DNA of 64,000 nt, taken from positions 434,001-498,000 of the forward strand of contig NZ_FQWO01000001.1 of the NCBI RefSeq assembly GCF_900129705.1. The letters run 5' to 3'. This document shows positions 9,696-58,402 of the stretch, piece by piece (the stretch's first letter is position 1; each line of letters begins with the position of its first letter). This DNA is from Flavobacterium granuli. Lineage in GTDB: Bacteria > Bacteroidota > Bacteroidia > Flavobacteriales > Flavobacteriaceae. Below the pieces are notes generated by a model. The model saw only the letters and a program-made list of their open reading frames with translations. It had not been told where the DNA came from and searched no databases. Both the position numbers and the translations under genes were made by a program.

Positions 9696-10577
9696 ATGAA
9701 TTATACCGATAAAATGCTACGCGATGACGCCCTAAAAGGAAAAGTAATTGTGGTTACCGGAGGCGGAAGCGGCTTAGGAAAAGCAATGACCAAATACTTC
9801 TTGGAATTAGGTGCCAAAGTCGCCATTACATCACGAGATTTAGAAAAATTAAAAAATACGGCAACAGAATTAGAAGCCGAAACCGGAGGCAGTTGTTTGC
9901 CTCTACAATGCGATGTGCGTCATTATGAAGAAGTAGAAAACATGCTGCAAGCGGTATTGAAAACCTTTGGAAAAGTAGATGTTTTATTGAACAATGCCGC
10001 TGGAAATTTCATCTCACCAACCGAAAGATTATCAGCCAATGCCTTTGATACCGTAATTGATATTGTCCTTAAAGGATCTAAAAACTGTACATTGGCCTTT
10101 GGAAAACATTGGATCGATACTAAACAAACATCAGCCACTGTGTTGAACATTGTCACCACTTACGCCTGGACCGGCTCAGCCTATGTTGTGCCAAGCGCTA
10201 CTGCCAAAGCAGGTGTTCTAGCCATGACTCGAAGCCTTGCCGTAGAATGGGCTAAATACGGTATACGTACCAATGCCATTGCTCCGGGACCATTTCCTAC
10301 CAAAGGAGCTTGGGACCGATTATTACCGGGTGATTTAGCCGAAAAATTTGATATGTCCAAAAAAGTGCCATTAAAACGGGTGGGAGACCACCAAGAGTTA
10401 GCTAATTTAGCTGCCTATTTGGTATCTGATTTCTCTGCTTATATCAACGGAGAAGTGGTCGTTATTGATGGTGGCGAATGGCTTAAAGGTGCCGGACAAT
10501 TCAATTTGTTGGAAGCTATTCCGGAAGAACTTTGGGATCAGCTGGAAATGATGATAAAAGCAAAAAAGAATAAATAA
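9696..10577 (+). CDS. SDR family oxidoreductase, 2,4-dienoyl-CoA reductase-like
   Basis: The 293-residue protein is a short-chain dehydrogenase/reductase with the cofactor loop TGGGSGLGKA (21-30) and the NNAAGNF segment. In the active-site region the lysine is present (SATAKAGV), while the usual Tyr three residues before it is replaced, as in the 2,4-dienoyl-CoA reductase and peroxisomal trans-enoyl reductase subgroup. That group reduces unsaturated acyl-CoA esters with NADPH during degradation of unsaturated fatty acids. The role is therefore likely lipid catabolism. The stop codon (10575-10577) lies inside the left copy of a 9-bp target duplication made by the adjacent mobile element. Confidence 0.87.
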   Translation: MNYTDKMLRDDALKGKVIVVTGGGSGLGKAMTKYFLELGAKVAITSRDLEKLKNTATELEAETGGSCLPLQCDVRHYEEVENMLQAVLKTFGKVDVLLNNAAGNFISPTERLSANAFDTVIDIVLKGSKNCTLAFGKHWIDTKQTSATVLNIVTTYAWTGSAYVVPSATAKAGVLAMTRSLAVEWAKYGIRTNAIAPGPFPTKGAWDRLLPGDLAEKFDMSKKVPLKRVGDHQELANLAAYLVSDFSAYINGEVVVIDGGEWLKGAGQFNLLEAIPEELWDQLEMMIKAKKNK

Positions 10578-10578
10578 T

Positions 10579-10820
10579 GCGAATCAAGGGTTGGTTTTAT
10601 ATGCCGTCCTCTGGGACTTTTTCACAAATCTTAAATACTTTTCTTTAAATATGTCGCTCCTCTGGAGCTTATAATGCATAAAGCTCATATAAAAAAAGCT
10701 CCGTTAGGAGCGAAATAGCTATAGAAAGTATAATTCAATAGATTCAAAGCTCCAGAGGAGCGATATATTTATGACAAATTAATTATCATAAACAATCATA
10801 ACTTTCAACCCTTGATTAGC
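10579..10820. mobile_element. 242-bp MITE-like element, copy 1, with 9-bp target duplication
   Basis: The element has terminal inverted repeats GCGAATCAAGGGTTG (10579-10593) and CAACCCTTGATTAGC (10806-10820), which pair with one mismatch. It is flanked by perfect direct repeats ATAAATAAT at 10570-10578 and 10821-10829. Internal inverted repeats include CGCTCCTCTGGAGC with its complement AGCTCCAGAGGAGCG and the small hairpin GCTCC-gtta-GGAGC. It encodes no protein. A second 242-bp copy lies at 58130-58371 with about 18 differences by eye. It sits between the SDR stop codon and the terminator that follows. Confidence 0.85.
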
Positions 10821-10855
10821 ATAAATAATTAAGATCTGATTTTTTTTTTTTTTAG

Positions 10856-10890
10856 AAGAGGGAGCCTCAAAAGGGCTTCCTCTTTTTTTT
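10856..10890 (+). terminator. Terminator downstream of the SDR gene and element
   Basis: GAGGGAGCC and GGGCTTCCTC form a stem with a short A-rich loop, followed by a run of eight T. It was presumably the SDR gene terminator before the element inserted between them. Confidence 0.75.
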
Positions 10891-47278: not shown

Positions 47279-47351
47279 GACTCGATAGCTCAGTTGGTAG
47301 AGCACATCACTTTTAATGATGGGGTCCTGGGTTCGAGCCCCAGTCGGGTCA
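47279..47351 (+). tRNA. tRNA-Lys(TTT), copy 1
   Basis: The cloverleaf is complete: acceptor GACTCGA pairs with TCGGGTC, the anticodon stem CATCA/TGATG encloses CTTTTAA with anticodon TTT, and the T-loop is TTCGAGC. Length is 73 bases without an encoded CCA. Copy 2 at 47389 is identical. Confidence 0.97.
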
Positions 47352-47388
47352 CAAATAGTGATCAACACATAATTTACTTGAAAGCATT

Positions 47389-47461
47389 GACTCGATAGCT
47401 CAGTTGGTAGAGCACATCACTTTTAATGATGGGGTCCTGGGTTCGAGCCCCAGTCGGGTCA
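47389..47461 (+). tRNA. tRNA-Lys(TTT), copy 2
   Basis: Identical to the preceding tRNA-Lys in all 73 bases, 37 bases after it. It is followed by a terminator at 47467-47497. Confidence 0.97.
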
Positions 47462-47466
47462 CAAAA

Positions 47467-47497
47467 GGTCGAGTAATTTATTACTTGACCTTTTTTA
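47467..47497 (+). terminator. Terminator after the tRNA-Lys pair
   Basis: GGTCGAGTAA and TTACTTGACC form a 10-bp stem with one wobble, followed by T6. The tRNA-Leu begins 6 bases later, so it may rely on read-through or its own promoter. Confidence 0.72.
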
Positions 47498-47502
47498 TTT
47501 TA

Positions 47503-47585
47503 GGCCACGTGGAGAAACGGTAGACTTGCCATCTTGAGGGGGTGGTGCTCGTAAGGGCGTGTGGGTTCAAATCCCACCGTGGTCA
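47503..47585 (+). tRNA. tRNA-Leu(GAG)
   Basis: The acceptor GGCCACG pairs with CGTGGTC (one G-U). The anticodon stem CCATC/GGTGG encloses TTGAGGG, giving anticodon GAG. A long variable arm (TGCTCGTAAGGGCGT) identifies a class II tRNA. Length is 83 bases. Confidence 0.93.
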
Positions 47586-57964: not shown

Positions 57965-58129
57965 TTCTATTCTTATTTTTAAATACCCTTTATTTTTAGC
58001 TAAACCGGATTTAGGTTTCACAATTAATTCTTTTTAAAATCTTAGTTAAAATGCGGTCGTTTTTTACCTCACTAAAAAGACATCCCTAAAAGAGATTAGG
58101 CTGAACTATAAAGAACATTACTTAAAACT

Positions 58130-58371
58130 GCGAATTAAGGGTTGAATTTATATGCCGTCCCTCTGGGACTTTTTCTCAAATCTTAAATACTTTTCTATAA
58201 GCATTTCGCTCCTCTGGAGCTTATAATGAATAAAGGTTATATAATAAAGTTCCGTTAGGAGCGAAATAGCTATAGAGAGTATAATTCAATAGATTCAAAG
58301 CTCCAGAGGAGCGACATATTTATGACAAATTAATGATCATAAACAATCATAACTTTCAACCCTTGATTAGC
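58130..58371. mobile_element. 242-bp MITE-like element, copy 2
   Basis: The terminal inverted repeats GCGAATTAAGGGTTG (58130-58144) and CAACCCTTGATTAGC (58357-58371), and the internal palindromes, match copy 1 at 10579-10820. The lengths are identical. Flanks CTTAAAACT and ATTAAAAAC share 6 of 9 bases, as for a diverged target duplication. It lies between the GH29 gene and sulfatase 3. Confidence 0.85.
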
Positions 58372-58402
58372 ATTAAAAACAATTTAACTTCTAAAATCGA
58401 AC

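Follow-up and report, generated by a model that had tools for sequence, protein, structure and literature searches.

The window, that is, the whole 64-kb stretch of Flavobacterium granuli DNA analysed here, contains a gene for a short-chain dehydrogenase (SDR) whose stop codon is separated from a downstream terminator-like stem by an inverted-repeat element of 246 bp (Table 1). An earlier note on this sequence had recognized the inverted ends, the copies of ATAAATAAT on both sides (10570-10578 and 10821-10829), the internal hairpins and a second copy, all of which are present. Its size of 242 bp with 15-bp ends falls slightly short, since the terminal AT belongs to the element: the ends read ATGC[G/T]AATCAAGGGTTG and form 17-bp inverted repeats with one mismatch. 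Inside are four hairpin units instead of the three reported, one with GTCC..GGAC pairing (unit D, GTCC..GGGAC type) and three of the GCTCC..GGAGC type (units A, B, and C), and no open reading frame of 80 aa or more. The SDR frame is intact, as had been stated, but its stop codon does not lie within the left duplication alone: two bases of the TAA come from the duplication and the last one from the element. The empty site described below likewise reads TAA.

Table 1. Features of the SDR locus and position of the second copy (window coordinates).
Feature	Position	Strand	Remark
Short-chain dehydrogenase (SDR) gene	9696..10577	+	TAA stop (10575-10577) partly in duplication, partly in element
Left target-site duplication AAATA, 5 bp	10572..10576	.	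5-bp model, 47 end pairs; single copy in G346
Whole element, read as a MITE with IS982-like ends	10577..10822	+	246 bp; empty site in G346
Left terminal inverted repeat ATGCGAATCAAGGGTTG, 17 bp	10577..10593	+	
Hairpin unit D, GTCC-TCT-GGGAC	10606..10617	.	GTCCC..GGGAC in second copy; same unit type opens the free arrays of G365
Hairpin unit A, GCTCC-TCT-GGAGC, REP-type	10656..10668	-	inverted relative to unit C; RNA fold pairs A with C
Hairpin unit B, GCTCC-GTTA-GGAGC	10698..10711	+	
Hairpin unit C, GCTCC-AGA-GGAGC	10749..10761	+	
Right terminal inverted repeat, 16/17 identical to left	10806..10822	-	
Right target-site duplication AAATA	10823..10827	.	
Terminator-like stem downstream of SDR gene	10854..10886	+	kept in G346
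Second copy	58128..58373	+	93% identical; duplication TAAAA at 58123-58127 and 58374-58378

Folded as RNA, the element reaches a minimum free energy of -82 kcal/mol (z = -9.5), and unit A forms a duplex of about 25 bp with unit C. The DNA fold is also strong (z = -7.4); its best structure pairs differently, while the centroid keeps A with C. Terminator-like scoring picked out unit C on the plus strand and unit B on the minus strand, with three sites found against 0.7 expected. Given its position between the SDR stop codon and the terminator-like stem, the element is probably part of the SDR transcript, where it would form a structured 3' untranslated region, and its insertion may be tolerated for this reason. 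Matches at Rfam gathering score in the 64-kb window were limited to three tRNAs, which are encoded consecutively at 47279-47585, and the element corresponds to no known RNA family.

Boundaries and length of the target-site duplication

The genus was scanned with a 15-base end, allowing at most one mismatch. Matches were obtained in 91 of 398 genomes and with the reversed control in 26 of 398, so that single matches are partly due to chance. Stretches for an end-pair test were chosen by hand from the scan list and not at random. Sixteen of the 64 stretches examined, including those fetched for the copies on contigs C15 and C24 of the window genome, held no facing end pair; the other 48 yielded 50 pairs, which became 49 when a pair with identical flanks (L092) was merged and 47 once L133 (416 bp) and L142 (486 bp) had been discarded as overlong, spurious pairs.

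The bases AT occur at 42/47 left and 44/47 right ends and were therefore counted as part of the element. This sets the duplication at 5 bp: 31 of 47 end pairs show it without a mismatch and 40 with at most one, leaving seven with two or more; pairing the flanks at random gave a mean of 1.75 perfect cases and a maximum of 7 in 2000 shuffles. Two longer duplications were considered and rejected: 7 bp, with one base of the AT counted in the element, is perfect in only 12 of 49 pairs, and 9 bp, with none counted, in three, compared to 31 for 5 bp. The 9-bp duplication proposed earlier is thus replaced by the 5-bp AAATA, and most other copies, which had been expected to show 9-bp flanking duplications, lack them. 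In the window copy 5 bp looked like 9 because an outer AT adjoins the duplication at either flank, an arrangement seen in only 3 of the 31 perfect cases, which places the outer AT outside the duplication. Among nine further copies beyond the 47-pair set, seven are perfect at 5 bp and one at 9 bp. The target preference leans toward T-N5-A (13/31 perfect cases). AT-ended terminal repeats can mimic a 9-bp duplication and hence point to the wrong IS family, which calls for caution when such elements are classified.

Empty site, second copy and further copies

With a query spanning the SDR gene and a uridine kinase gene, a search of 398 genomes of the genus placed the genome referred to here as G346 nearest by SDR identity (92%). 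Its SDR locus lacks the element and reads GAATAAATAATTAAGATCTGA, which equals the flanks in the window once the element and one duplication are taken away; comparing the SDR locus with a relative lacking the element, as had been suggested, hence gave one ATAAATAAT and not two. The second window copy, named earlier as a direct comparison, serves as such with its perfect 5-bp flanks (TAAAA), whereas the 9-bp reading fails. Together, the empty site and the second copy support the earlier view that the element is mobile but non-autonomous and relies on an enzyme from another source for its movement.

The second copy also has its counterpart in G346, inserted at the same site: the right flank continues there into the end of the element, with 91.5% identity. 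Because G346 carries this insertion too, the second copy predates the split between the window genome and G346, and the copy at the SDR gene most simply postdates it. The G346 counterpart (L198; C1:2849500-2852500) has expanded to about 740 bp and consists of repeated pieces, in which a unit of about 444 bp including the left flank recurs.

The window genome (G000; 3.8 Mb in 34 contigs) holds three more pieces: a copy on C15 that lacks the right end and, on C24, two fragments of the right-hand part. The decayed pair on C24 (L039:2580-3590) lies in intergenic DNA rich in short repeats, including AATAAT runs, ataaacgatggacg, and actcacaactcacgactcac. The genome contig collection contained no match to an exact pattern combining the left end with the interior.

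The interior is a REP/BIME-type array

Matches to the interior at E 1e-6 or better were obtained in at least 47 of 398 genomes, including G000 and G346, a lower bound given that two candidates per genome were scored. Among the matches listed, only those in G000 and G346 reach the element ends; those in the other 45 genomes span at most positions 19-217 of the 246-bp query. Arrays that stand free of these ends elsewhere in Flavobacterium lead to the same reading. One genome (G365) has two arrays with the same unit order on either side of a 203-aa frame, for which no Pfam or NCBIfam family was matched, and no terminal inverted repeat was found near the G365 array that was tested. Similarly, 35 loci drawn from the interior matches (free arrays and some chance ones) showed no terminal inverted repeat within 400 bp; the best candidates had 5-7 mismatches in 17 positions, compared to 4-7 in the reversed control. 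Repeated intergenic palindromes in inverted orientation, their occurrence as free arrays elsewhere and the pairing of A with C together characterize a REP/BIME array. Because the hairpins form an array of this type that stands free elsewhere in the genus, the element is a composite.

In the window genome, all nine GCTCC..GGAGCGA palindromes lie inside element copies (exact matches only; the reversed control gave two). This genome also contains a RAYT gene on C14 (NF047646, 81.5 bits at a cut-off of 80), and the palindromes adjoining it differ from those of the element.

A candidate driver with the same ends

The earlier note had proposed a search for an IS with the same ends, and such an IS, of about 1 kb and with a 5-bp duplication, is present in related species, although not in the window genome as assembled. 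Facing ends that are mostly 1025-1039 bp apart (GCG to CGC; 4 bp more with AT) enclose a transposase gene. Among 21 elements of 900-1100 bp, 10 retain a complete 300-aa transposase frame. The others are broken; in one a RAYT gene interrupts the IS, and for another (L102) the frame scored lies outside the element. The transposase matches DDE_Tnp_1 and DDE_Tnp_1_3, and a candidate catalytic triad read off the alignment (D120-D202-E259) is invariant in seven aligned sequences. The best NCBIfam model is IS982 (NF033520), with 116.1-126.8 bits in 7/7 tested proteins, below the cut-off of 130 bits.

The ~1-kb size, the single DDE transposase of about 300 aa and direct repeats of variable length agree with what the accessible portion of the family description gives for IS982 (PMC7335449). 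However, the driver transposases reach only 116-127 of the 130 bits, and the same portion gives IS982 ends as 5'-AC, in contrast to the 5'-AT found here (PMC7335449). Because canonical IS982 ends are 5'-AC, the driver group is named IS982-like and is not filed as IS982. Beyond the terminal inverted repeats, the element and the IS have nothing obvious in common, and their kinship is read from the ends only.

At E 1e-60, the transposase was recovered from at least 11 of 398 genus genomes, including F. franklandianum, F. restrictum, and F. laiguense, a lower bound with five candidates scored per genome. In the window genome it was found neither at this threshold nor in a separate search (best E 0.029), and the IS982 model matched in none of three genomes (G000, G346, and G035), all of which have MITEs with these ends. 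No transposase was confirmed among 360 candidate stretches from viral contigs. The nearest full-length plasmid relative, 43.6% identical, comes from Aureibacter. Plasmids pAT3 and pAT1 of Aureibacter tunicatorum (L235, L236) each carry a ~1-kb IS with ATGCGAATCAA-type ends; the two copies are 99.5% identical, start with ATGCGAATCAA, end with GATCCGCAT and have GTATA on both sides. Because the 5-mer is the same at both, they count as one observation. The IS group apparently extends beyond Flavobacterium.

Other MITE classes with these ends

Several further size classes share the ends (sizes in this paragraph from GCG to CGC). Four elements of 218-222 bp in G078 and two of 200 bp in G035 contain GTGCC- or GTCCC-type hairpins, some of them decayed. 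A 62-bp form in G035 has one hairpin of the GTGCC/GTCCC type and a 52-bp form in G310 a decayed one, while most elements of 115-121 bp contain ACCTAACAGG..CCTGTTAGGT or a close variant. All GTGCC..GGCACTWAATATTGG sites lie inside such elements in G078 (4/4) and in G035 (4/4); the G078 site at C44:197375 sits in a copy with decayed ends. Since the order of the hairpins differs between the 246-bp class and the 200/221-bp classes, at least two captures are likely, as far as can be judged from the sequences. Two IS ends might have come to flank a REP array, or else REPs might have invaded a short MITE; some copies of the 117-bp class match the 246-bp element over roughly the first 25 bases, which would fit the second route and hints weakly at it.

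Two loci show other combinations. In Flavobacterium sp. RSP15 (L091, identical to L234; G132 C24:336158-337767), a RAYT gene with CCCGCTAGCGCGAGCG-type palindromes on both sides lies inside an IS982-like element and replaces most of the IS transposase gene. A second locus (L120; G411 C1:2067140-2068440) has a 222-bp end pair with a perfect AAAAT duplication, a poorly conserved left end and the palindrome GTCCGCC-TC-GGCGGAC.

Discussion

The element at the end of the SDR gene is short, non-coding and bounded by terminal inverted repeats (246 bp, 16/17 matching ends), has a 5-bp target-site duplication (31/47 perfect) and an empty site in G346, and shares its ends with autonomous IS of ~1 kb in other Flavobacterium species, all features of a MITE. 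We consider it probable (roughly 0.87) that it is a MITE with IS982-like ends, moved by the transposase of such an IS and carrying a captured REP array. Acting in trans, the DDE transposase encoded by an IS982-like IS of ~1 kb with matching ends would excise the element and insert it elsewhere, and each insertion would duplicate 5 bp of the target. The IS itself may have been a resident of, or a visitor to, the lineage of the window genome, and would since have been lost. The four-unit REP/BIME array, with its two inverted copies that can pair, would have been captured between two ends and carried along as cargo.

A different view holds that this MITE is kept by benefit and not by mobility, being under selection as an RNA or DNA element at a gene end, such as an mRNA stabilizer, a terminator or a protein-binding site. 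The strong fold, the location between stop codon and terminator-like stem and the terminator-like scores of units C (+) and B (-), above the number expected, are in line with it; the copies in the window genome are, however, few, and three of five are truncated. We regard this view as quite improbable. Alternatively, a RAYT (HUH tyrosine transposase) might have inserted a REPIN/BIME whose ends and duplication are incidental. Such an origin would account for the array of inverted paired units, and a RAYT gene does exist in the window genome. Nevertheless, we regard it as very improbable given that 17-bp ends and 5-bp duplications are encountered much more often than chance would allow, that free arrays lack the element ends and that the palindromes flanking the C14 gene are different; RAYTs are also not known to leave a target duplication. 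A transposase of the IS4 or IS1 type with 9-bp duplications, the driver families named by the earlier note, is exceedingly improbable: ATAAATAAT stands on both sides of the window copy, but the argument fails because the duplication is 5 bp and not 9 (31 perfect pairs versus 3 of 49), the second window copy fits 5 bp only, and the ~1-kb IS with matching ends encodes an IS982-like transposase.

The preferred reading, a MITE with IS982-like ends and a captured array, has partial counterparts in known systems. MITECca01 of Cardinium, also a member of the Bacteroidota, is similarly a non-coding element of about 240 bp with inverted ends of the IS982 family (PMC9769881). According to excerpts of that report, MITECca01 keeps a short stretch of the parental IS beside one end and coexists with intact IS copies, whereas the window genome lacks the IS and the interior of our element is a REP-type array, of which these excerpts make no mention for MITECca01 (PMC9769881). 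The interior itself resembles REPIN/BIME arrays associated with RAYTs, which are described, in the available parts of these accounts, as intergenic inverted pairs of short palindromes with strong hairpins (PMC3116915, PMC6006769, PMC3733652). In contrast to those systems, DDE-type ends with a target duplication enclose the array here, and the palindromes beside the RAYT gene examined in the window genome are different ones. IS elements that insert into REPs likewise connect the two kinds of repeat; in the systems outlined in the accessible part of that work the IS lands in the REP, while here the REP array is the cargo inside the ends (PMC1525189). The open-access literature, with most subscription journals outside its coverage, yielded no REP array as MITE cargo and nothing on this element family.

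REPs are usually explained by a RAYT partner, and bacterial MITEs are usually viewed as shrunken copies of an IS. The arrangement found here is a nested one, in which a complete REP-type array sits within a MITE of the DDE type, and different palindromes occupy other MITEs that share its ends. Tentatively, and at somewhat less than even odds, we propose that IS982-like ends have repeatedly packaged differing REP/BIME-type arrays in Flavobacterium, which would allow REPs to spread within and between genomes by cut and paste, independently of RAYTs, this being the sole visible route in genomes like that of the window. The nested arrangement thereby offers a testable second route for the dispersal of REPs.
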